From NCBI RefSeq assembly GCF_026151205.1, contig NC_087081.1:17778859-17842858 (forward strand): 64,000 nt of DNA, written 5' to 3'. Below the pieces are notes generated by a model. That model worked only from the letters and a program-made list of their open reading frames with translations. It made no database searches and had not been told where the DNA came from. The position numbers and the translations under genes are program-made. Below are positions 2,651 to 63,310 of this stretch, in pieces. Every line of letters starts with the position of its first letter. Position 1 is the stretch's first letter. This DNA is from Bolinopsis microptera (lineage: Eukaryota > Ctenophora > Tentaculata > Lobata > Bolinopsidae).

Positions 2651-2949
2651 ATTAAAACCCCCCCAACCCCTTTTTTAAAATTATTCCCCTCCGGGCCAAA
2701 AAATTTCAGGGGAAAGACTTACTATTAAACTAAAAAAAAATTAGTTATTTAAAATTTTTTTTTCCCTGAAATGGACGGGTAAACCCACATTTAGTTGGGG
2801 GAGGGGACCCCAAAACACAAACAAGATTTTGGTTTTTTTTTCTTAAAAAAAAAAACCCCAAACCCCCCCGAAACCCCCAAACCCCCCCAACATTTTTAAG
2901 TACGTGGGGGGGATGGGGACGTTTATATAAAATGAAAAAACAATCACAC

Positions 2950-20600: not shown

Positions 20601-23600
20601 GATCAGGGAGTATGACACACATAACAAGTAAGTAAGGATCAGGGAGTATGACACACATAACAAGTAAGTAAGGATCAGGGAGTATGACACACATAACAAG
20701 TAAGTAAGGATCAGGGAGTATGACACACATAACAAGTAAGTAAGGATCAGGGAGTATGACACACATAACAAGTAAGTAAGGATCAGGGAGTATGACACAC
20801 ATAACAAGTAAGTAAGGATCAGGGAGTATGACACACATAACAAGTAAGTAAGGATCAGGGAGTATGACACACATAACAAGTAAGTAAGGATCAGGGAGTA
20901 TGACACACATAACAAGTAAGTAAGGATCAGGGAGTATGACACACATAACAAGTAAGTAAGGATCAGGGAGTATGACACACATAACAAGTAAGTAAGGATC
21001 AGGGAGTATGACACACATAACAAGTAAGTAAGGATCAGGGAGTATGACACACATAACAAGTAAGTAAGGATCAGGGAGTATGACACACATAACAAGTAAG
21101 TAAGGATCAGGGAGTATGACACACATAACAAGTAAGTAAGGATCAGGGAGTATGACACACATAACAAGTAAGTAAGGATCAGGGAGTATGACACACATAA
21201 CAAGTAAGTAAGGATCAGGGAGTATGACACACATAACAAGTAAGTAAGGATCAGGGAGTATGACACACATAACAAGTAAGTAAGGATCAGGGAGTATGAC
21301 ACACATAACAAGTAAGTAAGGATCAGGGAGTATGACACACATAACAAGTAAGTAAGGATCAGGGAGTATGACACACATAACAAGTAAGTAAGGATCAGGG
21401 AGTATGACACACATAACAAGTAAGTAAGGATCAGGGAGTATGACACACATAACAAGTAAGTAAGGATCAGGGAGTATGACACACATAACAAGTAAGTAAG
21501 GATCAGGGAGTATGACACACATAACAAGTAAGTAAGGATCAGGGAGTATGACACACATAACAAGTAAGTAAGGATCAGGGAGTATGACACACATAACAAG
21601 TAAGTAAGGATCAGGGAGTATGACACACATAACAAGTAAGTAAGGATCAGGGAGTATGACACACATAACAAGTAAGTAAGGATCAGGGAGTATGACACAC
21701 ATAACAAGTAAGTAAGGATCAGGGAGTATGACACACATAACAAGTAAGTAAGGATCAGGGAGTATGACACACATAACAAGTAAGTAAGGATCAGGGAGTA
21801 TGACACACATAACAAGTAAGTAAGGATCAGGGAGTATGACACACATAACAAGTAAGTAAGGATCAGGGAGTATGACACACATAACAAGTAAGTAAGGATC
21901 AGGGAGTATGACACACATAACAAGTAAGTAAGGATCAGGGAGTATGACACACATAACAAGTAAGTAAGGATCAGGGAGTATGACACACATAACAAGTAAG
22001 TAAGGATCAGGGAGTATGACACACATAACAAGTAAGTAAGGATCAGGGAGTATGACACACATAACAAGTAAGTAAGGATCAGGGAGTATGACACACATAA
22101 CAAGTAAGTAAGGATCAGGGAGTATGACACACATAACAAGTAAGTAAGGATCAGGGAGTATGACACACATAACAAGTAAGTAAGGATCAGGGAGTATGAC
22201 ACACATAACAAGTAAGTAAGGATCAGGGAGTATGACACACATAACAAGTAAGTAAGGATCAGGGAGTATGACACACATAACAAGTAAGTAAGGATCAGGG
22301 AGTATGACACACATAACAAGTAAGTAAGGATCAGGGAGTATGACACACATAACAAGTAAGTAAGGATCAGGGAGTATGACACACATAACAAGTAAGTAAG
22401 GATCAGGGAGTATGACACACATAACAAGTAAGTAAGGATCAGGGAGTATGACACACATAACAAGTAAGTAAGGATCAGGGAGTATGACACACATAACAAG
22501 TAAGTAAGGATCAGGGAGTATGACACACATAACAAGTAAGTAAGGATCAGGGAGTATGACACACATAACAAGTAAGTAAGGATCAGGGAGTATGACACAC
22601 ATAACAAGTAAGTAAGGATCAGGGAGTATGACACACATAACAAGTAAGTAAGGATCAGGGAGTATGACACACATAACAAGTAAGTAAGGATCAGGGAGTA
22701 TGACACACATAACAAGTAAGTAAGGATCAGGGAGTATGACACACATAACAAGTAAGTAAGGATCAGGGAGTATGACACACATAACAAGTAAGTAAGGATC
22801 AGGGAGTATGACACACATAACAAGTAAGTAAGGATCAGGGAGTATGACACACATAACAAGTAAGTAAGGATCAGGGAGTATGACACACATAACAAGTAAG
22901 TAAGGATCAGGGAGTATGACACACATAACAAGTAAGTAAGGATCAGGGAGTATGACACACATAACAAGTAAGTAAGGATCAGGGAGTATGACACACATAA
23001 CAAGTAAGTAAGGATCAGGGAGTATGACACACATAACAAGTAAGTAAGGATCAGGGAGTATGACACACATAACAAGTAAGTAAGGATCAGGGAGTATGAC
23101 ACACATAACAAGTAAGTAAGGATCAGGGAGTATGACACACATAACAAGTAAGTAAGGATCAGGGAGTATGACACACATAACAAGTAAGTAAGGATCAGGG
23201 AGTATGACACACATAACAAGTAAGTAAGGATCAGGGAGTATGACACACATAACAAGTAAGTAAGGATCAGGGAGTATGACACACATAACAAGTAAGTAAG
23301 GATCAGGGAGTATGACACACATAACAAGTAAGTAAGGATCAGGGAGTATGACACACATAACAAGTAAGTAAGGATCAGGGAGTATGACACACATAACAAG
23401 TAAGTAAGGATCAGGGAGTATGACACACATAACAAGTAAGTAAGGATCAGGGAGTATGACACACATAACAAGTAAGTAAGGATCAGGGAGTATGACACAC
23501 ATAACAAGTAAGTAAGGATCAGGGAGTATGACACACATAACAAGTAAGTAAGGATCAGGGAGTATGACACACATAACAAGTAAGTAAGGATCAGGGAGTA

Positions 23601-26600
23601 TGACACACATAACAAGTAAGTAAGGATCAGGGAGTATGACACACATAACAAGTAAGTAAGGATCAGGGAGTATGACACACATAACAAGTAAGTAAGGATC
23701 AGGGAGTATGACACACATAACAAGTAAGTAAGGATCAGGGAGTATGACACACATAACAAGTAAGTAAGGATCAGGGAGTATGACACACATAACAAGTAAG
23801 TAAGGATCAGGGAGTATGACACACATAACAAGTAAGTAAGGATCAGGGAGTATGACACACATAACAAGTAAGTAAGGATCAGGGAGTATGACACACATAA
23901 CAAGTAAGTAAGGATCAGGGAGTATGACACACATAACAAGTAAGTAAGGATCAGGGAGTATGACACACATAACAAGTAAGTAAGGATCAGGGAGTATGAC
24001 ACACATAACAAGTAAGTAAGGATCAGGGAGTATGACACACATAACAAGTAAGTAAGGATCAGGGAGTATGACACACATAACAAGTAAGTAAGGATCAGGG
24101 AGTATGACACACATAACAAGTAAGTAAGGATCAGGGAGTATGACACACATAACAAGTAAGTAAGGATCAGGGAGTATGACACACATAACAAGTAAGTAAG
24201 GATCAGGGAGTATGACACACATAACAAGTAAGTAAGGATCAGGGAGTATGACACACATAACAAGTAAGTAAGGATCAGGGAGTATGACACACATAACAAG
24301 TAAGTAAGGATCAGGGAGTATGACACACATAACAAGTAAGTAAGGATCAGGGAGTATGACACACATAACAAGTAAGTAAGGATCAGGGAGTATGACACAC
24401 ATAACAAGTAAGTAAGGATCAGGGAGTATGACACACATAACAAGTAAGTAAGGATCAGGGAGTATGACACACATAACAAGTAAGTAAGGATCAGGGAGTA
24501 TGACACACATAACAAGTAAGTAAGGATCAGGGAGTATGACACACATAACAAGTAAGTAAGGATCAGGGAGTATGACACACATAACAAGTAAGTAAGGATC
24601 AGGGAGTATGACACACATAACAAGTAAGTAAGGATCAGGGAGTATGACACACATAACAAGTAAGTAAGGATCAGGGAGTATGACACACATAACAAGTAAG
24701 TAAGGATCAGGGAGTATGACACACATAACAAGTAAGTAAGGATCAGGGAGTATGACACACATAACAAGTAAGTAAGGATCAGGGAGTATGACACACATAA
24801 CAAGTAAGTAAGGATCAGGGAGTATGACACACATAACAAGTAAGTAAGGATCAGGGAGTATGACACACATAACAAGTAAGTAAGGATCAGGGAGTATGAC
24901 ACACATAACAAGTAAGTAAGGATCAGGGAGTATGACACACATAACAAGTAAGTAAGGATCAGGGAGTATGACACACATAACAAGTAAGTAAGGATCAGGG
25001 AGTATGACACACATAACAAGTAAGTAAGGATCAGGGAGTATGACACACATAACAAGTAAGTAAGGATCAGGGAGTATGACACACATAACAAGTAAGTAAG
25101 GATCAGGGAGTATGACACACATAACAAGTAAGTAAGGATCAGGGAGTATGACACACATAACAAGTAAGTAAGGATCAGGGAGTATGACACACATAACAAG
25201 TAAGTAAGGATCAGGGAGTATGACACACATAACAAGTAAGTAAGGATCAGGGAGTATGACACACATAACAAGTAAGTAAGGATCAGGGAGTATGACACAC
25301 ATAACAAGTAAGTAAGGATCAGGGAGTATGACACACATAACAAGTAAGTAAGGATCAGGGAGTATGACACACATAACAAGTAAGTAAGGATCAGGGAGTA
25401 TGACACACATAACAAGTAAGTAAGGATCAGGGAGTATGACACACATAACAAGTAAGTAAGGATCAGGGAGTATGACACACATAACAAGTAAGTAAGGATC
25501 AGGGAGTATGACACACATAACAAGTAAGTAAGGATCAGGGAGTATGACACACATAACAAGTAAGTAAGGATCAGGGAGTATGACACACATAACAAGTAAG
25601 TAAGGATCAGGGAGTATGACACACATAACAAGTAAGTAAGGATCAGGGAGTATGACACACATAACAAGTAAGTAAGGATCAGGGAGTATGACACACATAA
25701 CAAGTAAGTAAGGATCAGGGAGTATGACACACATAACAAGTAAGTAAGGATCAGGGAGTATGACACACATAACAAGTAAGTAAGGATCAGGGAGTATGAC
25801 ACACATAACAAGTAAGTAAGGATCAGGGAGTATGACACACATAACAAGTAAGTAAGGATCAGGGAGAATGACACACATAACAAGTAAGTAAGGATCAGGG
25901 AGTATGACACACATAACAAGTAAGTAAGGATCAGGGAGTATGACACACATAACAAGTAAGTAAGGATCAGGGAGTATGACACACATAACAAGTAAGTAAG
26001 GATCAGGGAGTATGACACACATAACAAGTAAGTAAGGATCAGGGAGTATGACACACATAACAAGTAAGTAAGGATCAGGGAGTATGACACACATAACAAG
26101 TAAGTAAGGATCAGGGAGTATGACACACATAACAAGTAAGTAAGGATCAGGGAGTATGACACACATAACAAGTAAGTAAGGATCAGGGAGTATGACACAC
26201 ATAACAAGTAAGTAAGGATCAGGGAGTATGACACACATAACAAGTAAGTAAGGATCAGGGAGTATGACACACATAACAAGTAAGTAAGGATCAGGGAGTA
26301 TGACACACATAACAAGTAAGTAAAGATCAGGGAGTATGACACACATAACTAAGTAAGTAAGGATCAGGGAGTATGACACACATAACAAGTAAGTAAGGAT
26401 CAGGGAGAATGACACACATAACTCCGGCATGCGCAGGGATTATATTTCAATTTTTACCGCAACGCACGGAAAAATTGATTATTCTTACCCGGAGGTGTTT
26501 ATAATGAAATCATACTACAATACTTAGGGAAACAGCTTAATGAGGGTATCAAAGTTGGTCTCCCAGCATTTTCTTGTGATTTAAAACCACTAATTAACTC

Positions 26601-33008: not shown

Positions 33009-36000
33009 AGCCCAAAAAACCCAAAAAAAACCAATCCCAGTATGACCTTTTTCAGGGTAGGAGTTGGGTTTTTTTGGGTTTTTTACAAATTTTTCATTTA
33101 ACTATTATATATATACGGAATCATGAAAGAATGTAGATGCATGTAATAGGTAAATGTCGAACTTAACACCAAATATACACATTCAAGAATGAAAACATGA
33201 TATAGCAACAGTTTTTGAAGGAAATAAAATCATGTAGGAACCTAGCAAAATAATTATCAGTACAACATCACTGCTGTGGTTCATCACTACAACATCACAA
33301 TAGATAAAATCGCTTACATGTCACTCGAAAGTAGTATTTTATTCACTGATGTGCTCAGAAGAAGTTGGCCAATCAGATATGATTTCAGCCATATGTAATG
33401 CTCACCTTGATGCACAAGGCAAATTGAGTTAGTAGGGACGCAACTCACTGATGACCCCAACCCTGACCGCAACCGGTACGAGAGGAATAAAGCCTTTCCT
33501 CTCACCTTCACGATCTCTGTTTCCGTTTTCCTTATCTTCCTCTTAACATGAATCCATGCTCTATCTCCAACTGAAAGAATCTTGCAGTTACCATCAGCTG
33601 CATGATCACATGTGATATTAAGTGATATCTTCGCTTGTTTATGGCCCTGGAATCGCTTAAATATTGACTGGGATGGCATTCGATCTCGCCCTCCATTGAG
33701 GCAAACCTCAACAGCCGTATCATGATGCAGAGCATCACCATACACAGTTACTATGTTCGCCCATTCATCTAATGAGTCAATATCCTCCACATCCTCTTCT
33801 TCGTCATCTGTTTCCGCTTCATCACTCTCTGTTACGTCAGAAGATGGTTGAAAGGCCTCTCCTTCAAAGCTACAGTGTTCTTGAAGGAGTTCTCTACCCC
33901 TTGAGACTCCCTTCTTCATAGCTTGTTTTCAACCTTGAGATTGAAGTATCTTTACCTCTATATAGTTTATCTGCTTTCGGATGCGGTATAACAAGCTTGT
34001 TGCGAGAGTGGGCAACTGTTTCAGGGATCAAACTTTTGCCGAGTGCATCAAGCTCGAGGGAACGGTTTGATTTGCCCATGCCAACCAACACATCCTTAGA
34101 ACACAGATTAGTTTTAATGCCAGCATGGAGGCCTATGCGCAGGAAAGCATAAAGTTGCTCGAAGGCATCGGATGTAAACAGCCAGGGTATAAAGTGTTGG
34201 TCACTGTTGTCAGCTGTTACACTGAGGATGTACAGCATCAGATTCTCGACTGCAATAATCGCATCATCAAACGTTTGACAAGTAGGCATGTGCTTTGACC
34301 TGCCCTTGAGCTTCGTCATAGCTTCTTTCCATGATAAGAGAACAGTTCTTACAACCGTCATGTTAAACACCCTATCCTCGGGGCACATAGACTTATCGTA
34401 AAAAGCGCACAGCATCAGGTAGATTAGTTCCAACCAAAGACCTGTACCATGAAAACCCTGATCATAAAAACTTTCATAGTGAAATACTATGTCAGAAACG
34501 GCACTGGGATCTTGTTTATCAGTTAGCAGTATTGCACTCTTAGGGACCTTTTCTTGAAAAAGTTGGTTCTTCTTAAATATTTCAAAAATAAGGTCCCATC
34601 GCACAACATACTTATAGCGCTCCTCAAATATGACCTTTGATGGGTCACAAAAGAGCACTAACCTGGTAGTCAGGCATTTCATATTATTTCGCATCTTCTT
34701 TATTGCATGGGGAACGTCCTGCATCGGCAACTGCTTTAATTTAATTCCTAGTCCATAAACAAAGGGAAACTCTATCAGAGTTCCTTTACTGAGCCAATCC
34801 AGTATTGTTGACATTAGTTCGTTTGTGCTGTAACCGCTGAAGCTTTCTCAGCCGAGAGTCACCATCACCCACGACTCACGAGGCTCGATATTTTGACCCC
34901 GACACCGGCAGCTAGGGAGGTTACTGTATCGTGGATTGTTTGCAGCTCCTCACTTCCCATCTTGGTTCCAACTGGGTACGTACCGAGGCAATTATTAAAA
35001 GACCGTATACACAGCGGAACTAGGATAAGCGACGAAACTTGTGTAGCAGATGTAAGAAGTCCCGTTCGCTGAAGATCAGGGACTGATTCTAACCCGTTGA
35101 TTACCTTTCCCTGTAGAACGAGGGTGTCCTCACTGTCTGCTTGTCTTTCCAGATTAATCTCGGTTTCCTCGTTTATCAAGTGATCTTTCGACACTCCCAG
35201 TCTCCACGTAGTTTAACCAGTGAGGGGCCATTGCTTTTATCATCTTTGCACTTTTTGCACCGCAACACATCGATGTTGCCACATTTGGCACATTTCCACT
35301 TACTTCGTGCATTCATATGGATTATATCTCGATGAACTAGACATCCTGTTTGCTATCGTGATAACATACTATTGATATAAACACACTTATATAAACTATC
35401 TATTAAGTTAAGACATGAGAACAACACGTAGGTAAGACTCAGTGGGAAATAATTCACATTCAATACAACAAATGAAATGGCTAGAATTTTGTTTAAATTT
35501 TGTTTAAAAAACCCAAAAAAACCCTAAAAAACCCAATCCCAGTATTACCTTTTCTTGGGTAGGAGTTGGGTTTTTTTGGGCTACACCCCCCCCCCCCCCT
35601 TATTTATTGTAATAGATCAGTAGCAGGGTTTAGTTGTTACCTATTGCAACATCCTGTGCAACTCATTTACACCTCAACTATAGAAGGGAATAGTAGCACC
35701 TACCTTAGACCTCTGAGAGAAGTGATAATGTACAGTATAGGGAATAGTAGCACCTACCTTAGACCTCTGAGAGAAGTGATAATGTACCCCGTCTTGCTCT
35801 CCCTGTCGGGGAGACCGTGTGGTGTGAGACACCGAGAAACCAAACCTGCCAAATGTAATTATCAATTATAGGCCACAATCTTTTTGCATCCTAGTACAGA
35901 ACTTTAAGGAAACATATTGCCTTCTTAGCCGATTTTGGTGATATAATTTTTTAATTTTTCATCTCTTCAAGCCTCAATATGAACAGTGAAACTCGATGCA

Positions 36001-39000
36001 CGGTGGCTCACAGTGGGCCAGAATAGGGGGGCAGGCTATATTAGACATGTTAGTACCATCCAAATATGTCTGCAAGGTGTTCTATAGACTGCTTTGGCCC
36101 AAAAAAACGATCTAAACCAATTTCAAGACCCTACTTAACACAAAAACTGAGAAAATTGGGGAATTTTGAATTATGCTCCTTGAATTTTTAGCCCCAAAAT
36201 TCCCAAAAATTCAAAATTCCTTACATAAGCCACAAAACCAGTTTTGAGATGCTTTACTTGTAGCTGAACGCTTACAGGACTTGTATTTAAAATTTCATCA
36301 AGGTTGAACAAAAGATGGCAGAGTTATTACAAAAATATGTATGCCCATATTTGGGCACAAGCCCCAAATAACATAGTTTTAGCCAATAAATTGGTAAAAA
36401 ATCGGCATTTAAAAAAAATGCCCAAGGATGCCCACCACAATTTTTTTATATGTTGTAGGGAATCCTCTAAGCTTTCAAATGGTACCAAGGAATAGGCCGG
36501 CAAAGGCCGGCAATTTAACTATTTTTGGGCTGGAAGCGACTGAAGATGACCTTCAGTTATGCAAGCAATCCAAGCAGAAAATGCTACGTGCACACATTCT
36601 TGACAGTCATAAGTGTACCTCTACATTAACCGAAACTACTGACAAACTTATCTCTCTAACTCAAATTTTTTCGAGATCGTCCACTGATGCGATGACCGGC
36701 CTCCAGAACACTGTTAGTGAAGCACAGTCCCTTGTCCAGTCTCTACGTGACCATTCTGCTCACCCTCCTACTCAACCTACAACCACCCTCCCCGAAATAC
36801 CTGCACCACCAACACCGGTCCAGACTGTGGAACAGCCCTTCTCCAAGCTCGAAACTGGTGACCAGCTGCAGAGGTTTGACTTTAAGAGATTGGACTCTGA
36901 ATTAACCTATGATAAAGTTTTCTCGAATAGAAAGGTTGCATATTTTGGCGATGCTCCTTACAAGTATTTAGGAGGGTACCACAGGGCAAAGCAATTAGAC
37001 CCTGAGACGTACCTTGCTGAAATACTTGTAGCAGTTGATGATGTGTGCAAGACCAACAACATCAACTATAAGGATTTCAATAGCTGCATGATCACCAAAT
37101 ATGAATCACACGTCTCGTGTATACCTCCTCATTCCGATGATGAATCGTGTATAGTACCCGACAGCACTATACTTACCATTTCCCTGGGGGGTAAAAGGGA
37201 TTTAGTTTTTCGTAGACGTCCTCCAGGCGAGTATCGCGATGAAACCGTGACAGTTCAACACGGCGACTGTTACACTATGACGCGAAAATCGCAGGACCTT
37301 TTTGACCATGCTGTTCCTCCGCAAACTCAGGCGGATTTTGAAGGTCCTCGAATCAGCTTAACCTTTAGACAGTTGGCCTCGGCACATTCCAGAAAATCTA
37401 GCAGCCATCAGCTGCGACCTCTACCCCATCATAAAGTGAACCAGACCAAACGAGTGCTGATACTGTCTGACAGCAAAAACTGTAATTTTGACTGTTCTCA
37501 ATTTCGTTCACCTGTCATAGCGTTCCGGGAAAACTTATTTTTCCTCCGCGACTTAAAGGAACACCGGGAATCGATTCAACAAGCCGACATTGTACTCATA
37601 AGTGCTGGCATAAACGATATCCAGAAAAACAGAGCGAGTGCCGTCCTGCTGCATAATCACATCAGAAGTTTCATAGAACAGTTCCCGCGCACTATGTTCT
37701 TATTCGATGCAGTCAGTCCACTATCGATACATGCTGACCGATTCAACACCCACAACGACATTATCCAGTACCTTAATGAACTCATGTTTAAGTGCTCCCT
37801 TCACCATGACAACTTCAGACTCTTCGACAACTCAAGTTTTAGTCTCGCTCACCTCGCTCGTGACGGTCTACATCTTAACTATATTGGACAGAGTGTATTA
37901 TCAGATTGCTGGGTAAACTGTGTGCTCATTGGACTGGGGTTCAGGCGTGGACCCCTACCTCTACGTGAGCACTTTAAACGTATGATATCTTATCCAATCC
38001 CTGGCCACTTTGGCACCTGAGCACGACGTATTTTATATCTTAATGTAAAATTATCATGACAAAAATATCGAATCCTGAACAACTTTCCAGACTCGCGCTG
38101 AGTCGCAAACAATTTCACTAATCAAACAAACGTAACTTATTTGAACAAACTCTTACCATATTTTTAAAATTTTCCGTCATTTCAAATCAAAATTAGAAAC
38201 TTAAATCAAATTCAAACTCAAGCACAAAGCACATAATACAACCAACTACTTAAACGAACTTTTCCCTTATCCAGATTCCCTACCTTCTCACCTTATCTAT
38301 CACACCTTATCAGCAAAACGCGAAATAAACCCTGCTTGATAATAGTCCACGTCCCTACATCATAACAATCATTTCATATTATCTAATTCCTAACCTCATG
38401 CCGTACTCAGACAACGACGACGCAATATTTACACGATATCTACACAGATATTTACACAGTACTCATTATACATACATCACACATTACTGTACATTTGACT
38501 CTGTACATTTGACTGATCTGTACATTTGACTCTGTACATTTGACTCTGAACATTCGACACATACATTACTGTACATGGAAATTAGGCTCATGCACGGTGA
38601 GCTGCTGCCATCAAGTAATAGAAGAGAAGTTAAAGGTCAATCATAAAGGTAAAGGTGAAGTTTACTTAATTACTGTAGATAAGTCACGGTACTTTCTACA
38701 CACAGGACTGAAAGTCTTCGTTAGAAGTATCTGACTAGGTCACGTTATTGTTATCATATTTTGTATAAATAGTAAGTCTATACTCTCTTAAATATATCAT
38801 AATATAACTATAATACTAACGAATATAATACATTATCTCATAGTTCTATGAACGAATCTCAGCGTTGCAACAAATGTAATACACGTATTCCTAAAGCACG
38901 TTCGTTCCTAATTTGCAGTCACTGCGACAAAATAAAACATATGAAATGCATGAAGTTATCTAAGTCTGAGGCAAAAATAATTGTAGATTCTGGCTCTGCC

Positions 39001-42000
39001 TGGATATGTTATGACTGTATCTCCAGCGCCTTACCAGTAAATGCATGCCCCTCGGCAAAGCCACCGAGACAAGGGCCCGTCATAGGTCCTAAATTTAAAG
39101 TTCAATGCACATGCTGTAATGGCTGGATTTACTCCCCCGCCAACCTGAAAACCTGCCACTGGTGCGAATCTAAAGTACATACCAAATGTCACTCCGACTT
39201 ATTAGGATGCAGAAATTGCTGTGAAAATATGATCCCGGGATACTATGTACATTGCTATCAGCTATACTCATTACATACACATACTCACACCGGCGTAATC
39301 CACAATCCCTACGATCGCTATCAGTTGATTAACGAAATAGGAAATACAATTGACCAAGATCAGGAACTCGAATATTGGAATGAGATTTCTGATATTTTAG
39401 TTAGCTGCAATTACATGGAGCCGACAAATGTAAGTTCGTCAGGACCATGTGATCTTAAGATATTTACCTTAAACATACGGGGACTTCTTAAAAACGTAGA
39501 CAAATTAAGAGAAGATATATTCACGTACTCGAAGTATGATGTCCTTTGTTTTAACGAGACTAATCTCTTGCAGGATAAGCTTCCTAATGGTATTAATGAC
39601 CTAGTGCTTGAGGGATTTTATGAACCACTGTTACGAGATCCAATACGTAGTTCTGGTCGTGGTGGGGGTTTAGCAATTTATATCAATACGCGCGTATGCG
39701 AGTCTGAAAATATTGAAAAATTCTTTCCCCAAAACTTTGATGTGACAGACAAGAGTGGTGAATTCATGTTGGTAAAACTCCATAACTGCAAAGGCTTTAA
39801 CAAAACAAAGATAATCGTCAATATATATCGGTCACCAGCATCAAAAAATCCTGATAATTTTAACAAACTCATAGACTCCCTATTACACGGCATGGAAAGG
39901 CACTCGAGAAAACATACTATATTAGTCGGTGATTTCAATGTAGATCTTACACATTATGATACTGACAAACATTGTCAAAATTTGATTGAAACTATGACTA
40001 AATACGGTTTCTTTCAGCTAGTCTCACGTCCCACACGTATCACTGATCACAGTGCCACTCTTATAGATCATGTTTACAGCAATAACGTACAACACACACA
40101 CAGCTGCAATGTTATTACTGTTGACCTGTCTGATCATCTAGCCACTCTTGTTACTATCTCACTTGGGCAATACAGCCACATTGCAGGGAGTAGAAACAAA
40201 CGACACAGAGTCGACCATGGAATGAATATTGAAAAACGTATGTTTAACGAGTCGAACAACCTTAAATTTATAGAATTAATTGGATCCGAAATGTGGGAGG
40301 AAGTCACACGTGAAAATTGTGCTGATGAACAATATAACAAATTTATTGAAATATACGGTCAGCATTATGATGAGGCATACCCAGTGAAAACCAATCATGT
40401 GCGCCGCAAATTTGAAAGGCAGGACCCCAAACCTTTTATGCTACCCTGGCTTGAAATTGCATGTGCTCGTAAAAACAAATTATTCCATGCCAAAATAGTG
40501 GACCCAACGGAGGAAAACTACAAGGCTTACAAAAAGCATAAGGCATTCTGCGACAAGCACGTCAATAAGGCAAAAGACAAATACTACAAAACACAATTTG
40601 ATAAGTATAAAGATTGTTCAAAGAAACAATGGCAGCTGATCAACACTCTACTTGGCAGAAAATCTAAATCTCATAACAAAATTAAACTCCAAAACGCCGA
40701 CGGAAATATTATAAATAGTGACAGTGATGTAGCTGAGCACTTTAACTCTTACTTCTCCAACATTGCCACAAAAATCAAAGATGCGATCAGCGCGCGTACT
40801 GTATTCGATCCAGGGGGTTTTAAACATTACCTTAGCAGCCCAGCTTCGCAGTCTATGTTCGTAAGACCAACTACCGAAAGTGAAGTTGAACAAATTATTA
40901 GCAAGCTTAAGAATAAATCCACTCAAGACACTAAAATTGAACCCCTAAAAATTGTAAAAGACTGCCCCTCCTTCTGTAAAGTCTTGTCCATAATCATTAA
41001 CACATCATTTAGTCAAGGTATCTTCCCATCATCTCTCAAAATAGCTAAAGTTATACCAATTCACAAAGGAGGCAGCAAATCCGACGCCACTAACTATCGA
41101 CCCATATCTTTGCTGTGCACCTTTTCCAAATTGTATGAAAAACTTATGCATAATAGAGTAATGGACTTCCTTGACAAGAAAGGCTCGCTCTTTGAAGGGC
41201 AATATGGCTTCCGGCCAGGCCGATCCTGTGAGCATGCTCTTTTGGATGCTCAACACACGATTCTGAATTCCCTTGCCAAAAAGGAAGTTGCTCTATTACT
41301 CCTAGTCGACTTTAGTAAAGCTTTTGACGTTTTGTCTCATGATGTATTGATTGACAAACTCCAGCACTATGGAATCCGTGGGCAAGCTTTGCAATGGTTT
41401 AAATCCTACCTGAGCACACGTCAGCAATACGTATGTTTGAATGGTATTAAATCAGCTCTTAAACCTATTACATACGGAGTTCCACAGGGCAGTATTATGG
41501 GACCTTTGTTATTCCTAATCTACATCAATGATATGCCAAATATCAACAGTATGATAAAGTTTATACTCTACGCTGATGATGCGAACATCATAATAAAAGG
41601 CAAAAATGCAAACGATGTTATACAAAAATTCAACCAATTCTCCCACGAGTTTGTACGCTGGGTTGACTGTAATGGACTTGCACTTAATCTAAAAAAGACC
41701 TGCTATATGCTTTTCGGTGTTAGAAATACTGATAATACTCCAAATATTCATATTGCAGACACACAATTAGAACGTAAAAGGGAAGCACGGTTCCTTGGCG
41801 TTATAATGGATGATAAACTAACATGGTCTAAGCATATAGCAGCTGTTAGATCAAAAATGATGCGGTATGTAGGAATTATGTATAAAATAAAACGTCACCT
41901 ATCGATTCAAATAAGGCTACAGATATATCAAAGTTTTGTTCAATCGCATTTAAACTTCTGTTCAATTGTATGGGGGTTTGCAGCAAAAAATCACATTGAA

Positions 42001-45000
42001 TCACTCTTCTCACGACAAAAACAGGGTATCAGGGCAGTAATGCCAGGTCACATTAATTACTTTTACAAAGACGGTCGACTGCCAGAACACACAAAACAAT
42101 TTTTCAATAACAATGGTATACTCACGGTGCACAGTGTTATTGTAAAAAACACACTAATTCTCATGCACCGAATCAAACATTTCCGCAGCTCAGTCCCTCA
42201 ACAAATCTGTATGACTATCCCAGAAAATGCACCCACTGCAAACTCAGATCACGTGACTGCAGCATCCTGGTTAGCCGAGTACAACACCACACATTTCAGA
42301 TCTTCGATGTTCTTCAAAGGACCTTTACTCTCAATTTATGCTGTAAATGCAAATGTAAGCACCCTACCCACACTTTTTTCCATAAACCTTTTTAAATCGG
42401 CTACAAAACGCATGCTCTTGAACCTGCAGAGTGAAAATGACGATGACACGTGGCCCAGTTTCTTATTACATAATATTCCAGGTCTAAGAAGGTCACAACG
42501 TGTCTGAAAGTTACTGGACACAACGGTCATTATATCAGTTTAGTGAATTAGTTAATTAGTTAATTAGTAAATCAGTTATTAGTCATATGGTTATTATTAA
42601 GTACTATATATTATATGATATTACAAAAATAAACTATGAATATATATTTACACACAAAAAAAACCAGAACAAACTGATCACAGACTAGCGGCAACTAATA
42701 TTAATGGATAAGCCACACATCCTAAATTCCGGGTCCATATTTACACTGCCACATTCCCCACTATCACTATTTTCCTATCAGCACAAACCGTAATTAATTG
42801 ATTTCAACAATCACAAACACTACATATCCAAACGAATGGCATAACATAGCAATATCTACGATATCCTAAATCAGTCCCTAACAAACTTAGCGCGAGTCTG
42901 AAAGGCTGTTGGAAGCACAGAGTGCTCCATATTTTGTTTTTATCAATAAACCTTTTTTTTTTTCATTTTCTTTTTTTTATAAATTTATTAACTGCGTGCA
43001 AATTTGTGTTTCAGATTTGATCTATTTATGATATATATTTATGATTATGTAAAAAAAAAAAAAGGCCAAAAATTTGCCTAAAAATGGGGCAAAAATTCAG
43101 GCTCATGTCAAAAATCAGCTATATTAGATAGCCTATTAAGGTTTTTTCCAATAAATGAAGGTTTGAGAGTTGTTTGAAGATATAAAAGGAGTCAATTTAC
43201 TTTAAATAATCTTATTTAAGGAACAGACATAGAGTAAGAGCTATTTTTCACTGCCAAAAAGAAACAAAATCAATTTTTGAAAAATCGCAAATTTCGCGGC
43301 CGCGTAGCGGTTAAACCATATGGAATTTTTAATTTCGGTTTTTTGCATTCTGTAGGGGACCAGTTTTCCTATCAGATTATTTAAAATACATCCTAAACTA
43401 ACAAACTCATTTTTGGACCTAATATAGCCTGGTGGCCCACTGTGTGGCTTTTGACCTGTTTCTGCACTTTCCGCATTTGGAATTTATTGGCTATCTGACT
43501 AATATCAATATGGACACTGAAAACGCGAATTTTGCCTCATTGGGAAATTTTCGAGAGCATGCAAAGTGTTTTCTAGACCAGGCTTTTACCTCAGGCTGGC
43601 TACGACACTGCCTATTATAACACACATAATGCCGGCACGCACAGGGATTATATTTCAATTTTTCCGGCGACGCGCAGGAAAATTTGATAATAATTTCGTA
43701 ATGAAAATAAGTATGGTATCAGCTTTTTTGAAATAAATTTTACAGAATCGTAATCAGCTTGATAAGACGAATCTTTTAGTACCAAGTAGGTGCTTTTAGA
43801 AGAGAAATTGTCTTAAATAATTTTCTAGCTCCCTTGTATAAATTTGTTACTAATTTTTTTACAAATTTTGTGTCTTCAAGTATTATAAATTTGGTACTAA
43901 AAGATTCGTCTTACCAATCTGATTACGATTCTGTAAAAATTATTTCAGAAAAGCTGATACTTTTTGAGTAATAGGTATTTTAAGCCTTAAATCTGCCATT
44001 TTTGGCCTTTTTTACGATGAATTTTACTAAGTCGTTTGAGGCCACATTTCATAGCTTAAAACTCAAATCTGAGAGCCATCCTACTTCAAAAAGTTGTATA
44101 TGATCATCAGCTACACTCACAAGAATTTTTGAAGCGATATCTGCTGACCCGGGTGATTGGTGAAATGTACAACTTTAGAAGTAGAAGTAAATTTCAATTT
44201 TTCTTATTTCGACCTTGTTTGGTCTGTAACTTCGTCATTTATTGTTCAATTATATAATCCTTTTAATGGCTTCTTGTACGGATTGTAAGTAATGTTCAGT
44301 AAAAAATCAGCCAAAAAACGTTTCGAATGATTGAAAGATCAGTATTACAGTGACAGACTTCTCAAAATTTCCAAAACTTTCGAAAAAGAAAATATTTATT
44401 TTTTCGAAAGTGAGTGCTCTCAAAAATAATTTTTAATGTATCAAATCTTATTGGTTTTATGTATAATTATACTTTCTTAATATGAAGTTAACAACAGGGC
44501 CACGGCATAAAAGCTTTTGGTGTATGTCCCCTTAAGGGGAGATACACCAAAAACGTTTTTGGTGTATCTCCCCTTAAGCGTGCCAGCGTTTTGTGTTATA
44601 AAGTTATAAACCCCTCCGGGTTAGAATAAGATTCTGATAATCCCGGCTCCCGCTAGATAAATTCTGATAATCCCGGCTCCTGCTGTTAGTTTTTTCCCGC
44701 TGAATAAATAACCCCGGCAACAACAACAAACAACAACAGATTATATTATTTTAGTTAGTATGGACATGAATGTTACGATTGCAGTCTATTTATTTATTAC
44801 AATATAATATTATTATATTGTAATAAATAAACCGGTTTCAAAGCCCTTAAGGGTGGCCCTCGGGTCTTTAAAACAAAACAAAAGTAGAGATCGTTACAGT
44901 AATCTAAACATGACACGACTAGACTGTGAACGATGATCTTAATCTGTTTGGGACTTGATAGAAATCTGATTTTTCTGATATGACGTAATGTATGAAACAT

Positions 45001-46765: not shown

Positions 46766-47215
46766 GTGAGAATCCCTGCCACGTTTTTGGTCAGTTTCGC
46801 CGGGGCTCATGTCTTTCCTTGAGGGAGCATGAATGTCTACAGAAAAACTAACAAATCCTAGCGAAGTCCAATCCGAACCACATCTTCCATCAGAGGTTGT
46901 GCTGGGTCAGCTGGTTACTGAACGGATTGGCCTGGAGAAAGGCATAGTCCTGTTATTCTCAAGTTAACCATAGAGGGGGTCAGGCGCTGTTCGCTCACAG
47001 CTGGTTCTTGAAGCCAACACCCTCAGCCCCACAGAAGTGGGAGCACTGTCGGTGGTGGCTCACCCAGATAACGGACAGTGTCTCTCCTTCTTTCTTCTTG
47101 GAATTGCATTGGCTACCGATGAGTAATCCGTTGGAGTAAAGTCTGCCGGTGTCCTGGGTGTGATGGATCTGAGTTAGATGGCAGGTTGTGGAGGTGGTAA
47201 TCGTTTCTTCCTAAT

Positions 47216-47242
47216 GCCCTGGTAGTCTTGTACTACCAGGGC
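47216..47242 (+). other. perfect hairpin in LINE 5' region
   Basis: GCCCTGGTAGT-CTTGT-ACTACCAGGGC, an 11-bp perfect stem 310 bases upstream of ORF1. It may be a structured 5' UTR element; function unknown. Confidence 0.65.
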
Positions 47243-47551
47243 TCCTGCGGTCTGGTACGAGGTTAGTTTTATTGTTAGAGATCTAGTGATGTTTGAAATT
47301 TATTAACTCCTTTTAGCTACTTCTCCTTTAGATAAGTATTGCATTCTCTTTTTTCTGCTATACAGTTCTTTACAACACCTCTGTTCATTATAATTCAAAT
47401 TTTTTTCACTCTGAACTATAAATCTCTGGCCTATTAACTGTTTCAGATCCAGATTGCTAGGGTTTACAACGGTGCCACTGAAACATCCTGCTGTTGATCT
47501 CTTATCCGGATCACCCAGTCTCCTCCCGATCCTCCCACACTTCACAACAAG

Positions 47552-48604
47552 ATGCCAACACTGCCCGCCAACTTCCTCGCCTTACTGCAAAACTCATCTC
47601 TTGAAGTAAAGCAACACATGCATACCCTACTTACTCAGAGTATCCTGGACAGTCTGAAAGAGAAAAAGCTTGCTTCTAAAATAGAACGTATAGATGAAAA
47701 GAAGAAGGAAAAGAAAACGAAGAAGGAAACTACTGTTCAAAATGTCTCGTATAGCCCACATGCGCTCGTAGAGCACGTTCCAGTCCTCCCTGGAATGGAT
47801 GAAAATCTATTCAAGAAAATCACAGAAGAATTAGATTTAATGAATCTTGAAGGCAAATCTAAAAAAGTCCACACCCTATGGCTAAGCCCTTCATCAGAAG
47901 ACTACTGCTTTGGTAACATAGTTAACAAGCCACATCCCATCAACAACTTCCCTAGCATCTTTAAGTTGATGGGACTTATTAATGACCTCCCCTCCACCAC
48001 CAACAACATGGATGCTTGCCTTGTTACTAGGTACGACACTCAGCAAGCTAAGTTAAGCCTCCATAAAGACGATGAAGACCTAATAATATCACAGTCCAGC
48101 TCCATTTGCACTTACTCAATAGGGGCTCCACGGTCACTTGAGTTTGTGCTCGATACAACCCAAGTAGAACAACGCACAACTAGGGCCTCTAGGTCAAGGT
48201 CAGCCCAAGAGTTGATTAACGCAGACTTCACCCTTCCTGCCACCAATGGCACACTGAACATCATGAAGCCTGGTGCACAGCAAGTCATGAGGCACAGGAT
48301 TGCCCCAGGAGTTGCACCTTCTGACAATGAAATTTGTTGGAGGTATAGTCTCTCCTTCAGAAAGTTAACCACACCTTCCTCTTCCCCTTCATCTCCTATA
48401 CATCCCTCTCCAAAACTGTTTTACCTTGATGTTTTTTGGGCTTTCTTAGACCGCTATGGATACAGAAACGAGAGATTATTTCCTAAATGTGACAATAGGG
48501 GCTTTTATGATATTCATCCCAGTCCCAAGGCTGGGATGCCAGTGTTGGCAAAGTTCTATCTCAGAATCATACACTCAAAGTGGTTTAATCCATTGGGATA
48601 CTGA
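47552..48604 (+). CDS. LINE ORF1 with AlkB-like dioxygenase domain
   Basis: 350 codons. A lysine-rich N-terminal stretch (EKKKEKKTKKE, ~49-60) may bind RNA. Residues ~105-272 fit an AlkB fold: LHKDDED (His171, Asp173), VMRHRIAPG (His248) and RYSLSFR (Arg264, Arg270). No SGNH domain is visible, unlike the ORF1 at 36428. It is followed by a 0.6-kb spacer and ORF2 on the same strand. The shared domain in two different LINEs suggests it is a regular part of this LINE group rather than a random capture. Confidence 0.78.
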   Translation: MPTLPANFLALLQNSSLEVKQHMHTLLTQSILDSLKEKKLASKIERIDEKKKEKKTKKETTVQNVSYSPHALVEHVPVLPGMDENLFKKITEELDLMNLEGKSKKVHTLWLSPSSEDYCFGNIVNKPHPINNFPSIFKLMGLINDLPSTTNNMDACLVTRYDTQQAKLSLHKDDEDLIISQSSSICTYSIGAPRSLEFVLDTTQVEQRTTRASRSRSAQELINADFTLPATNGTLNIMKPGAQQVMRHRIAPGVAPSDNEICWRYSLSFRKLTTPSSSPSSPIHPSPKLFYLDVFWAFLDRYGYRNERLFPKCDNRGFYDIHPSPKAGMPVLAKFYLRIIHSKWFNPLGY

Positions 48605-49199
48605 TGTGGTAATTCAATTCAATATTTAAATTTTTCATTGTCTGCATCAGTATCCTATTGGATCTGATCATTTGGATGTTATTTATATGTATTCAAACGA
48701 AGTGATAGCATAATGTATGTTACTTCATATTATAGCACAATACCTAACAAAACACAACGGCGAGACACAATTCTGTTAATAATATACTTTAAAGTTCCAT
48801 GGGAATATCGGCTCAACAACACCGTGTTGCAACTGGTATGTTTTCTAGGTATGTTATCATCAGGAAAAGTAATAGAGGTAACGGGGAAAATTTGTTGTCC
48901 TGTCTTCTGTCTCGTCATATGTTATGTGCTCTATTGGGTATATTTTATTTTTATGTTATTTTGTATATATTTTCTTTGACTATCGATGCTAATATACTCC
49001 CTGGTGCTCCCCTACAACCTAAAATACACTCTGTACCATGTTTGAGGTCATCCATAAATCTTTACTTTATGGTAATATTTTGTACCATTTTTCTCAGACA
49101 CTTTAAACTTGTGTATAGGGGGGAGGGGGCATTGGGACAGCCTTAGCTGCAATTTCTGTAAAATTGCTATCTACCTCAAAAACCGAACTGTCACCTACC
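48605..49199 (+). other. LINE inter-ORF spacer with hydrophobic short frames
   Basis: Overlapping short frames here (48713-48979, 48799-49146) are hydrophobic and T-rich but unconserved in any way I can see. Treated as spacer. Confidence 0.5.
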
Positions 49200-51412
49200 A
49201 TGTCACCGAAACAGACTGTTAAGTTACTTTTCAATATAACCAGCAGCTGGCTTGGGGTCATGTCTAGGTGTGGTCTGGTTTTTCTATCTCTCCTTAATAT
49301 TTCCCTGATAGTAATTTGTAATTGTTCCTTACTGAACCCTGGACCAAATTTATCCGTTGTTTACAATAATGTCCATGGTTTCCTAAATACACGCGATTTA
49401 GCATCAGGAACACCACCACTAAATATGACCAAGATACATGAATTCCATGGTTATATCTACAAACATAAGCCTCACATCATTATTCTAAACGAGACATGGC
49501 TGAAAAATTCCATTCTCAGTAATGAGGTGCTCCCTGACAAATACAAAGTATTTAGGCTTGACCGATCCTTAAGATCGCATCCAGTGGATGCAACCCAGCC
49601 CAAGAAATTCAGAAAAAACGGTGGTGGTGTTCTGATTGCCCATAGAACAGACATTGATATCTCGAGTCTAAAGTTCTCTAAAGTAAGTGTTCAAGCTGAA
49701 TTATTATCCATCATAATTAAGACTCAGTGTGGAAGAAACTTTTGTATATCAACATTTTATAGAGTAGGAACGCTTGGATTAGAGAATTTTGAATCTTTCA
49801 AGAAACATTTTGTTACTTTAGCATCTGCCAGAAAATTGCAAAGGCACATTCTGGTAGGTGACTTTAATTTGGCTTCGATTTCCTGGCCAGATGGTCAGTC
49901 ATCTTGCCAGCTACATTCTAGCTTTGTAAATTTTCTCACTGATGACCTCGGACATACACAACTTATTAGCTCCCCTACTCACAAGTCAGGCAACACCTTA
50001 GATCTTGTGTTCACTAACATTCAAAACCTTATTAAGAATGTTAAAGTTTTAGATCAAAACGAAATGTGTATGTCCGACCACTTTTGTATCACATTTGACA
50101 TTGATATTAAGACCAAGTATATTAAGCAGCCTAAAAGAAAGATCTTCAATTATAGTAAAGGTAATTTTAGGGGCCTGAATTCTGAGTTATTTAGCATCGA
50201 TTGGGATAGTATATTTGAGTGTAATGATCCTTATCTTGCCTGGAGTCGATTCAGAGGAGTTCTCGGTGCAGCCTGTGACCGATGGATCCCTAAAAAGACC
50301 ATTAAGTCTCAGTTCCAGCCCCCATGGTATGACTCCGAATGTGATCGTCTCCTACGAAATAAGGAGAAATGGAGAATAAGGCATAAGGGGAGCAACTCTG
50401 AGTCTCATAAACAAAAGTTTCGTGCATTTCGCACAAAATTTAAAAATTTGATGGACGAAAGAATGAGACTCAGTGTTGAGGATGACTCCGATGATGCTCT
50501 TATCTCCAAGAAATTCTGGACCTACGTTAAATCTAAATCAAAGTCAACCAGGATCCCTGAAACTGTCAAATATCACAATCGCTTTCGAAACAATCCATCT
50601 GATCAAGCTGCCCTTTTTAACGAATATTTTTATGAGCAGTTTTCTCAAGAGAGCGATTATGGCATTGACATAGATTTTCGTGATGATTGTTTTTCAAGTC
50701 TTGTGTTTAGTAGAGAAGATGTTCTGTTGATTCTTAAAAAGTTAAATCCTAACAAGGCCCCTGGCCCTGATGGGATTCATGGGAGAGTCCTCAAAAACTG
50801 TGCCCAAAGCCTTGCATACCCACTTAGTGTTTTATTTAACCTGTCTTTCTCGAGCGGATGCATACCCCCTGATTGGAAGCTGGCACTTGTAGTACCAGTG
50901 CACAAAAAGGGCGATAAGTCTTCGGTTGAGAACTACAGGCCTATCTCGTTAACATCTCTTGTAATGAAAGTCTTTGAAAGGTGCATAAAGACTGCATTAT
51001 ACGCTGCATGTTCTGATCTGTTGGATGACCGACAACACGGTTTCGTTAATGAACGTTCATGCACAACCCAAATGATACCTTTCACGGACAATCTTGCACT
51101 TGCATTGAATAACAGGTCCAGGACTGATATAATATATTTTGATTTTGCGAAAGCTTTTGATAGCGTTTCGCATGACCTCATTTTAAGTAAATTGAAGAAT
51201 ATTTTTAATGTCGATGGACTAATGCTTAAATTTATTAAGTCCTATCTTGAGGGGCGACAACAACAAGTAGTGATAGGAGGCCAAACGTCTTCTTCTCTAC
51301 CAGTTCGGTCTGGTGTCCCTCAAGGTTCTATACTTGGCCCTTTATTGTTTGTAATATTTATAAATGACATGTTCTCCTGTGTCTCTGAAGGCACCAATAT
51401 CGCCCTTTATGC
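49200..51412 (+). pseudogene. outer LINE ORF2, 5' portion (endonuclease and most of RT)
   Basis: ATG at 49200 (MSPKQTVKLL). A hydrophobic segment is followed by CSLLNPGPN, resembling the NPGP end of 2A-like sequences. The endonuclease follows: NETW, GDFNLASISW, MSDHF. RT motifs are APGPDGIHGRVLK, NYRPISLTS, FDFAKAFDSVSHD and SGVPQGSILGPLLF. The frame is cut after IALYA, where the catalytic aspartates should follow. The aspartates and the rest lie at 62419-63310; removing the insert restores a continuous frame of 1035 codons including the stop (2213 + 892 bases). Confidence 0.9.
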
Positions 51413-51520
51413 CCTTTATCGTAACGCGCACGTTTTGTTTTGTTACAATTCCACCGCTCTTCAATAGTTCCAGAAAGTTCCAGAACAAAGATCACCTTCA
51501 AACACAACGTGCAAGACCCG

Positions 51521-58796: not shown

Positions 58797-58854
58797 ACCC
58801 AACAGGAAGGCATCTGAAGGAAAGTCATGAGTTCAAACTGGGAGAACAACAGAT
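58790..58854 (+). repeat. bridge copied from 60976-61033
   Basis: 58797-58854 is identical to 60976-61033 (offset 2179), preceded by 7 filler bases. It joins the end of copy one to the start of copy two. Confidence 0.92.
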
Positions 58855-62418: not shown

Positions 62419-63310
62419 AGATGACACTAAAATTTGGAGGGAGATTCTTGGTTATCCTGACCATCACATAATCCAAAATGACATCAATAGATTATATGAT
62501 TGGTCAGTGAGAAATCGAATGAAGTTCCACCCACAAAAGTGCAAAGCCCTCTCTGTGTCCCTGCAAAGAAACGTGCTGGATAACTTGCCATTCAATGCCT
62601 TCTTTTATAAACTTTCTGGAAGTGATATTGACTTTGTGCCCTCTCAGTCAGATTTAGGAGTCGCAATAAACTCCAGGTTTAATTGGGGTGCACAATGTAA
62701 AGCGCTTGTTTCCAAAGCTACCTCTAGACTTGGACTACTTAAGAGAACATGTCATTTCACTACTGATAAAAGGCAGAAAAGATCCTTCTATTTATCGTTA
62801 ATTAGGTCTATATTTGAACATTGCTCTGTCATATGGTCCCCTCAATCTGCAACTCATCTTCAACAGTTTGTTGCTATCCAAAAGAGGGCTATTAAATGGA
62901 TCAATGGTGAACCTTACTCCAGTTATAATGACGATAAACTTGCTACAGAGCAAAAGAAACTAAATATTCTCCCTGTTAAACAGAAGTTTATTTATAACGA
63001 TCTTATGACCTTCTATAAAATAGTAAATAGCATAATTCCAGTTTCGCTCCCTACATATATAGTCCTATGCCGTCCAGAGGGCACCCGATACACTAGGCAC
63101 AATGCTCAAATAATTGATATGTCGGATACTTCAACTTACATGAGTACCACTGTGCCCTGCTCGGATGCCTTCCGAAATAGCTTTTTTCATAGATCTATGC
63201 TGAAATGGAATAGTCTACCAGTATGTATCCGGCAGTCAGAGCGGATTTCTACTTTTAAGGCCAAACTGATCAAGTACCTCTGGGCTGCCGATACAGTCTG
63301 GCCAGATTAG
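62419..63310 (+). pseudogene. outer LINE ORF2, 3' portion
   Basis: It begins with the RT catalytic DDTKIWREILGY and runs through MKFHPQKCKALSVSL, SDLGVAINSRFNWGAQCK and RSIFEHCSVIWSPQ to TAG at 63310, the expected C-terminal region of CR1/L2-group LINEs. It is separated from its 5' half by the 11-kb insertion and cannot be translated as a complete protein here. Confidence 0.88.

Follow-up and report, generated by a model that had tools for sequence, protein, structure and literature searches.

In a 64,000-nucleotide stretch of the genome of the ctenophore Bolinopsis microptera (contig NC_087081.1, labeled C10 here, positions 17778859-17842858; the whole stretch is referred to as the window) we find two long interspersed nuclear elements (LINEs), E1 and E2, whose first open reading frame (ORF1) encodes a dioxygenase domain of the AlkB type, joined in E1 and in full copies of E2 to an SGNH/GDSL-like hydrolase domain. 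This ORF1 anatomy is spread over many LINE families of the genome and both domains are under purifying selection, points about which we are in very little doubt. A sequence-only reading of the window had proposed one such fusion, a LINE ORF1 at 36428..38020; the fusion is real but it is not single, as it is shared by a second, deeply diverged LINE in the window and by many other families of the genome.

Layout and Copies of the Elements

The coordinates of the features of E1 and E2 are collected in Table 1. Downstream of E1 ORF1 lies an ORF2 with Pfam matches to RVT_1 (E = 6.8e-35) and Exo_endo_phos (1.2e-12) and a sub-threshold match to PHD (1.4e-4), so that the LINE context originally supposed is confirmed, and the arrangement is that of Type IV elements, with an esterase-type domain upstream of an ORF2 containing endonuclease and reverse transcriptase (EN-RT). 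All seven E1 copies fetched (L034-L040) match the window solely from 36531 onward (blastn pieces of more than 150 bases), and the match of 10 near-identical ORF1 copies starts at residue 30 of the window ORF1; the window copy is thus 5'-truncated and bases 36428-36530 of its frame are flank. The span given to ORF1 by the sequence-only reading is therefore indeed an open frame, although its codons before 36531 lie outside the element.

The genome searched comprises 264.65 Mb in 232 contigs. E1 ORF1 has at least 81 matches there (a lower bound, 81 of 804 candidates having been scored), with internal stops in 4 of the 81 match rows. They include 10 further copies on seven contigs, each an open frame of 537-543 amino acids that matches residues 30-530 at 99-100% identity, together with pieces and with families at ∼56-60%, 47-53% and 28-32% identity. 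At least 38 matches were obtained for E1 ORF2 (38 of 6985 candidates scored), among them 10 whole-length copies, that of the window included, at 99-100% identity and none with a stop. With 40 of the 81 ORF1 rows taken into account, 25 of the 38 ORF2 matches have a same-strand ORF1 match within 3 kb upstream. Downstream EN-RT ORF2s were also present in each of the four divergent families that were fetched (L084-L087).

The ORF1 of E2, 350 amino acids in the window copy, has 117 matches in the genome. Residues 1-288 match 22 places besides the window at 91-98% identity, of which 19 have an intact frame of 521-526 amino acids, and residues 287-350 align as separate pieces further along in the other copies. 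The ∼460 bases that are absent at 48411/48413 of the window E2 are present in 8/8 compared copies and encode most of the SGNH domain, for which the full copy L042 matches Lipase_GDSL_2 over the cut-off (1.1e-9). Since a Pfam scan at E ≤ 1 gives nothing for the window ORF1, the AlkB assignment in E2 rests on BLASTP with the E1 AlkB (1e-8 for a single comparison, 26% identity), on a profile-profile comparison of the E1-type and E2-type AlkB groups (99.1% probability, E = 3.9e-19, again for a single comparison) and on the matches of the E2-type profile given below. We infer that 62507-63310 is the continuation of E2 ORF2; the ORF2s of E1 and E2 are 26-30% identical, depending on the alignment.

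Of nine proteins scanned with Pfam, eight bear AlkB, and six of these pass the cut-off of PF13532 (L034, L071, L075, L076, L077 and L083); L042 is without a match to it and L082 shows only a PF03171 match below threshold (0.028). The first five of the six do not pass PF13472, with L034, L071, L075 and L077 below its cut-off and L076 having only a PF00657 match (0.026), while L042 (39.5 bits), L082 (45.6) and L083 (53.3) lie above it; L080, an SGNH-only match, passes neither. In L083, a 502-residue relative of E2 at 40% identity, both cut-offs are passed within one frame (PF13532 5.4e-17, PF13472 6.1e-14).

The AlkB Domain

E1 ORF1 matches PF13532 (2OG-FeII_Oxy_2, where 2OG stands for 2-oxoglutarate) over residues 174-314 with E = 3e-19 and 70.4 bits against a cut-off of 31.2, by which a chance occurrence of the motif was rejected. 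The assignment as an AlkB-like dioxygenase is thereby upheld, and His235, Asp237, His294, Arg308 and Arg314 are all found at the positions that the sequence-only reading had given them. In a search with the single sequence (phmmer) the best solved relatives of E1 ORF1 are human ALKBH2 (3.8e-9) and ALKBH3 (6.9e-8). A profile built from nine E1-type LINE AlkBs and compared with chains of the PDB matches ALKBH3 at 4.6e-22 and ALKBH2 at 1.9e-17; one built from four E2-type AlkBs has ALKBH3 as its best match (2.2e-10) and ALKBH2 as its second. ALKBH8 is far weaker with these LINE-only profiles (2.7e-5), and neither ALKBH5 nor FTO is matched, at E ≤ 0.01 for the E1-type and E ≤ 1 for the E2-type profile, although both match at ∼0.002 a mixed profile in which 17 phage AlkBs outnumber two LINE rows. 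Judged by their best matches the LINE AlkBs would thus be of the ALKBH2/3 type.

Conservation of the catalytic residues among copies, proposed earlier as a check on the assignment, is found throughout. The five residues (His, Asp, His, Arg, Arg) are intact in 14/14 representatives, down to ∼24% identity, a set in which J and J2 are near twins and the sequence of L081 is short, and purifying selection is seen in two families (see below). Related AlkBs that are not part of a LINE occur in 16 of 50,697 phage records and in 26 of 34 candidate stretches from IMG/VR. E1 retains 16/16 and E2 12/16 of the positions invariant in 17 phage AlkBs, a biased sample (17 of the 26 IMG/VR loci, all picked by the motif [GQ][PA]R[IL][SN]LTFR) in which 6 of the 16 positions are fixed by the choice of motif; without these the counts are 10/10 for E1 and 8/10 for E2, and in the less conserved phage columns E1 agrees at 20/111 and E2 at 18/111. 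In a tree of LINE and phage AlkBs, all LINE AlkBs group together relative to the phage rows with a support of 0.92.

AlphaFold2 models of the ORF1 proteins were calculated from 17 phage AlkBs aligned with two LINE sequences. For E1, residues 141-320 form a mainly beta core with flanking helices, with mean predicted local distance difference test (pLDDT) values over ten-residue segments of 81-96; the SGNH part, for which there were hardly any aligned rows, is poor (28-78) and the overall predicted template modeling score (pTM) is 0.46. The E2 model gives pLDDT means of 70-94 for residues 101-270, except for an insert at 55, and a pTM of 0.59. We judge the predicted order of strands and helices in the E1 model to be compatible with an AlkB core. 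Because the alignment itself contained phage AlkBs, the case for the double-stranded beta-helix asked for by the sequence-only reading is based on the sequence match to solved AlkB homologues, beside which the model predicts a mainly beta core with flanking helices. Helices are also predicted ahead of the AlkB domain, at residues 39-110 in E1, where the pLDDT means are 47-77 and a coiled coil is possible, and at residues 17-55 in E2.

The SGNH-like Domain

The second domain of E1 ORF1 matches Pfam Lipase_GDSL_2 (PF13472) at residues 384-488 with E = 2.3e-4 and 22.2 bits, below the cut-off of 32.9. The motifs on which the hydrolase assignment had been based are in place, SDSK at residues 347-350, GIND at 394-397 and DGLH at 479-482, but the block-II Gly is missing from the E1 subfamily, for which reason we call the E1 domain SGNH-like only. 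The block I Ser and the Asn of the block III GxND motif are present in 14/14 representatives and the block V His in 13/13 that are readable there (L081 being short). Three residues ahead of this His there is an Asp in E1, B, D, E, F and G and an Asn in I, J, J2, M and E2d; in E2 and E2c the Asp lies two residues before it. Given the deviations at the Gly and at the Asp, neither SGNH type is canonical throughout.

Profiles of the E1-type and E2-type SGNH domains match one another (95.3% probability, E = 2.1e-8 for a single comparison). Among solved proteins, lysophospholipase L1 (3.3e-9) and the crystallised esterase of zebrafish ZfL2-1 ORF1, 4c1b (3.7e-4), are matched by the E2-type profile. 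With the E1-type profile the matches are to a PAF-acetylhydrolase-like protein (0.001) and to an acetyltransferase of the OatA type (0.004), unrelated proteins appearing from ∼0.3.

Selection and History

Ratios of nonsynonymous to synonymous substitution (dN/dS) were obtained by the Nei-Gojobori method, pooled over pairs and for whole open frames only. For eight E1 loci, including the window copy L033, they are 0.06 in AlkB, 0.07 in SGNH and 0.35 in the N-terminus; for 19 E2 copies they are 0.18 in AlkB, 0.15 in SGNH, 0.31 in the N-terminus and 0.28 in the linker, the 19 being drawn from the 30 loci L041-L070 after the window copy L041 and L048, L052, L059 and L064-L070 had been dropped. AlkB is thus under purifying selection in both families, the outcome expected of the dN/dS check that had been suggested. 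The identities of the AlkB and SGNH domains track that of ORF2 (Spearman 0.76 and 0.79, respectively, from six families giving 15 non-independent pairs), and with this covariation the AlkB-SGNH ORF1 seems to have accompanied these ORF2s for a long time and not to be a recent capture.

Proposed Function and Alternatives

ALKBH2 and ALKBH3 act on N1-methyladenine and N3-methylcytosine, and methyl groups on the Watson-Crick face block reverse transcriptase. Since the LINE AlkBs match ALKBH3 and ALKBH2, and since an ORF1 protein sits on RNA that is read by the element's own reverse transcriptase, we prefer repair of the template to erasure of N6-methyladenosine (m6A), to a DNA substrate and to a role without catalysis. 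Like the ORF1 proteins of other LINEs, this one would coat the RNA of its element, and its AlkB domain would oxidatively remove Watson-Crick-face methyls (N1-methyladenine, N3-methylcytosine) from that RNA or, alternatively, from the DNA that is single-stranded during target-primed reverse transcription. As these lesions stop the reverse transcriptase, the domain would serve to repair the template. The sequence-only reading had suggested, more generally, that the domain could take alkyl or methyl marks off RNA or DNA. The particle would be brought to lipid membranes by its SGNH domain, a role already proposed for the ZfL2-1 ORF1 esterase. According to the literature, cited here and below from excerpts of the papers, methylated nucleosides interfere with reverse transcription and AlkB is used against them in RNA sequencing (PMC8053708), and the ZfL2-1 esterase has been proposed to drive the assembly of ribonucleoprotein (RNP) on membranes (PMC3905857). 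We regard the chances that template repair by the ORF1 AlkB is combined with a membrane role for SGNH as evenly balanced. Tentative, and to our minds somewhat on the doubtful side, is the wider proposal that an RNP-bound AlkB clears RT-blocking lesions or host-placed methyl marks from element RNA or single-stranded DNA and that AlkB and SGNH form an old module that has moved about in this genome, present in LINEs with ORF2s of only 26-30% identity and, with the order reversed, in very long frames of which L092 was read.

A number of observations count against this reading. An AlkB of orchid Ty3/gypsy elements acts on m6A (excerpt of PMC9289625), so that similarity to ALKBH2/3 leaves the substrate unfixed, and the search with the E1 sequence by itself places ALKBH2, a DNA repair enzyme, above ALKBH3. 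The choice of open frames and the shared ancestry of pairs both favor low dN/dS values, making the contrast between regions the safer result. The block-II Gly is absent from 10/10 E1-type representatives (it is present in 4/4 of the E2 type) and the Asp three residues ahead of the SGNH His is found in only 6 of 13 readable ones; with the Gly lost and the Asp often not in place the domain may bind rather than cleave, above all in the E1 type. No upstream ORF1 match is seen for 13 of the 38 ORF2 matches (with the 40 ORF1 rows used above). Finally, no AlkB showed in the ORFs of E3, a third LINE in the window whose SGNH-like part is, by eye, degenerate; not all LINEs here need AlkB, then.

How do the competing explanations fare? 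That the AlkB domain is an m6A eraser, by which element RNA would escape m6A readers or silencing by the host in the way suggested for the orchid elements, is unlikely. An AlkB that belongs to a retroelement and demethylates m6A in vitro has been published (excerpt of PMC9289625), and ALKBH5 and FTO do match (∼0.002) the phage-dominated profile with its two LINE rows; the LINE-only profiles, however, match ALKBH3 and ALKBH2 and not ALKBH5 or FTO at the limits given above, and on this account m6A was dropped as the first-choice substrate. For L1, moreover, ALKBH5 is reported to suppress retrotransposition and METTL3 to help it (excerpt of PMC7873242), so that an eraser need not benefit a LINE. 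We consider it distinctly unlikely that the substrate is DNA, with repair of N3-methylcytosine or N1-methyladenine in the target site or new cDNA, or removal of a silencing mark. DNA methyltransferases make N3-methylcytosine, which ALKBH2 repairs (excerpt of PMC8857917), there is a single-stranded DNA stage in LINE copying, and ALKBH2 comes first in the search with the E1 protein by itself and second with the LINE profiles. Both of these profiles nevertheless match ALKBH3 better. ALKBH2 uses a hairpin on double-stranded DNA, and since positions 1-42 are unaligned in the profile alignment to ALKBH2 this hairpin has no evident counterpart, which is weak evidence against a DNA substrate.

Both domains might instead have ceased to be enzymes, their folds doing no more in the ORF1 particle than bind nucleic acid and lipid. 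The state of the Gly and Asp in SGNH just described speaks for this, as do the dead version of the domain carried by L080 and, by eye, another in E3, yet the five catalytic AlkB residues are kept in 14/14 representatives down to 24% identity and E1 keeps 10/10 phage-invariant positions outside the selection motif, as against 20/111 elsewhere; we think this explanation very improbable. The chance is negligible that a host AlkB gene was captured in one copy or that an assembly fusion is involved, as could have been imagined while the sequence-only reading was based on a single window: E1 ORF1 recurs in 10 more open copies, 99-100% identical, on seven contigs, and there are 19 open E2 copies, many diverged families and selection, and a host gene, a single-copy fusion and an assembly artefact are refuted by the E1 copies, the E2 copies and dN/dS.

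Relation to Known Systems

Type IV (esterase) ORF1s are known in CR1, L2 and RTEX LINEs (excerpts of PMC4120745 and PMC3905857). Like the Type IV ORF1 of ZfL2-1, the ORF1s described here have SGNH after a helical N-terminus and an EN-RT ORF2 downstream; unlike it, they have AlkB between the helical part and SGNH, and the E1 type is without the block-II Gly. The transposon-specific His of ZfL2-1 (H191, four residues before the GxND Asn N195; excerpt of PMC3905857) is replaced here by Ser in 13/14 and by Cys in 1/14 representatives. Bdelloid rotifer long terminal repeat (LTR) and Penelope elements with a GDSL ORF3 (excerpt of PMC5408684) are similar in that SGNH/GDSL domains are shared among retroelements; the word AlkB is absent from the text of that paper.

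Retroelements carrying an AlkB-type dioxygenase have their precedent in the Ty3/gypsy elements of Phalaenopsis orchids with in vitro m6A activity (excerpts of PMC9289625 and PMC12786077). Those are plant LTR elements in which a separate extra ORF is ALKBH5-like, whereas here the AlkB belongs to a LINE ORF1, is ALKBH3/2-like, is fused to an SGNH-like domain and occurs in many families. Plant positive-strand RNA viruses, likewise selfish RNA-based elements, have an AlkB thought to repair methylation damage of RNA (excerpt of PMC2714080); they are viruses and not LINEs, and the likeness drawn here is one of description. ALKBH3 and ALKBH2, the closest solved relatives of the LINE AlkBs and with the same Fe and 2OG residues, are cellular enzymes. 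We know of no SGNH partner for either of them. While AlkB in retroelements and esterase ORF1s are thus already known, none of the open-access matches listed describes an AlkB domain as part of the ORF1 of a LINE, subscription journals and Repbase lying outside the search.

In the collection viral_contigs nothing was found with P0001, E1 ORF2, the E1 AlkB domain or the two-row alignment A2, and in genome_contigs no relative was found with A2. The reverse transcriptase alignment A4 gave one locus in each collection: L005 in viral_contigs, by eye an intron-type reverse transcriptase, and L032 in genome_contigs, a LINE in a mussel-symbiont metagenome-assembled genome in which no AlkB was seen among the ORFs of at least 120 amino acids.

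Table 1. Positions of the features of E1 and E2 within the window
Feature	Positions	Strand	Remarks
E1 ORF1	36428..38020	+	530 aa; helical N-terminal region, AlkB, SGNH-like in order
E1 5' end in window copy (5' truncation)	36531	+	copy alignments
Helical N-terminal region, E1 ORF1	36542..36757	+	residues 39-110; predicted helices 39-57, 62-80, 86-110
AlkB-type 2OG-Fe(II) dioxygenase domain, E1	36929..37375	+	residues 168-316
HxD motif, E1 (His235, Asp237; Fe ligands)	37130..37138	+	
His294, E1 (third Fe ligand)	37307..37309	+	
RxxxxxR motif, E1 (Arg308, Arg314)	37349..37369	+	
SGNH/GDSL-like hydrolase domain, E1	37451..37957	+	Ser349, Asn396, Asp479/His482; block-II Gly absent
E1 ORF2	38848..42507	+	PHD-like finger, endonuclease, reverse transcriptase
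PHD-like zinc finger, ORF2 N-terminus of E1	38866..39018	+	Pfam, below cut-off
E2 element 5' region and ORF1	47106..48604	+	homology to other copies at least from 47106; ORF1 47552-48604
AlkB domain of E2 ORF1	47858..48367	+	HKDDE ... H ... RYSLSFR; without own Pfam match
E2 deletion point, window copy	48411..48413	+	∼460 bases missing, with most of SGNH domain
E2 ORF2 first part (endonuclease, reverse transcriptase)	49164..51467	+	interrupted by later E3 insertion
E2 ORF2 C-terminal part beyond E3	62507..63310	+	E1 ORF2 residues 983-1160 match 62654-63202

AlkB and SGNH Elsewhere in the Genome

PF13532 has at least 151 matches in the genome (150 of 587 candidates scored), all of those listed being over the cut-off; these places may be LINE ORF1s, host genes or parts of other elements. 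Many lie in frames of 550-850 amino acids and six in frames of 2225-3388, the very long ones being at 2883-8000 of L092 (C10:16871500-16879500), C3:14441692, C12:8338315, C12:2469580, C9:15868177 and C9:11092850. One stretch of 1706 amino acids in L092, the sole long frame read, contains SGNH (5.9e-6, under the cut-off), then AlkB (3.3e-21, over it) and then a weak match to DUF6570 (0.0059, under it), the order of SGNH and AlkB being the reverse of that in the LINE ORF1s. DUF6570 is typical of Helitron-like helicases, and the AlkB-SGNH pair may thus also ride on another class of mobile element.

The SGNH-only match L080 (C1:18538900-18541900) is a helicase-like frame of 972 amino acids with UvrD/ResIII-type matches under the cut-off and an E1-type SGNH at its end in which the Asn and His are replaced; it has no AlkB match. 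The region C8:8269542-8270123 matched in the same way.

Other Features of the Window

The flanks of E1 (36000-36420 and 42960-43450) show, by eye, a common inverted CACAGTGGGCCA-like end, as if the element lay inside a DNA transposon; a comparison of words shared by the flanks did not confirm these ends and yielded nothing convincing for the 5' and 3' ends or a target-site duplication. The E2-type ORF2 starts with a hydrophobic stretch (49164-49340) that extends to an NPGP motif, as in L086 and L087, and shows no PHD finger of the E1 kind; it is possibly a signal or a 2A-like skip site. E3 (52423-62141) is inserted in E2 ORF2. Its ORF1 (53988-56738) has by eye an SGNH-like C-terminal part with DAH replacing the GDS serine, and a weak match to an OSK domain (0.036); its ORF2 contains a 99.6% identical internal duplication (57088-58788) that is perhaps an assembly fault. 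An ORF of 695 amino acids at 6480-8567 resembles by eye a Penelope-type reverse transcriptase with a C-terminal GIY-YIG part, although Pfam gave no match, and ∼13 kb of short tandem repeat at 13225-26430, with several of the minus-strand frames open (up to 3809 amino acids), are by eye repeat and not gene.

Significance

Whether mobile elements answer the limits set by RNA and DNA methylation with enzymes of their own is an open question, as is the way in which such methylation limits retrotransposons. That AlkB and SGNH are both kept by selection in many copies suggests an element equipped with an enzyme by which its nucleic acid is cleaned or freed of marks. As the LINE is recently amplified, with many near-identical, selected copies of the AlkB ORF1, the question can be put to the test with one purified domain. 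The abundance of the AlkB family in the genome, finally, may point to a long-running conflict in this animal over the methylation of nucleic acids.

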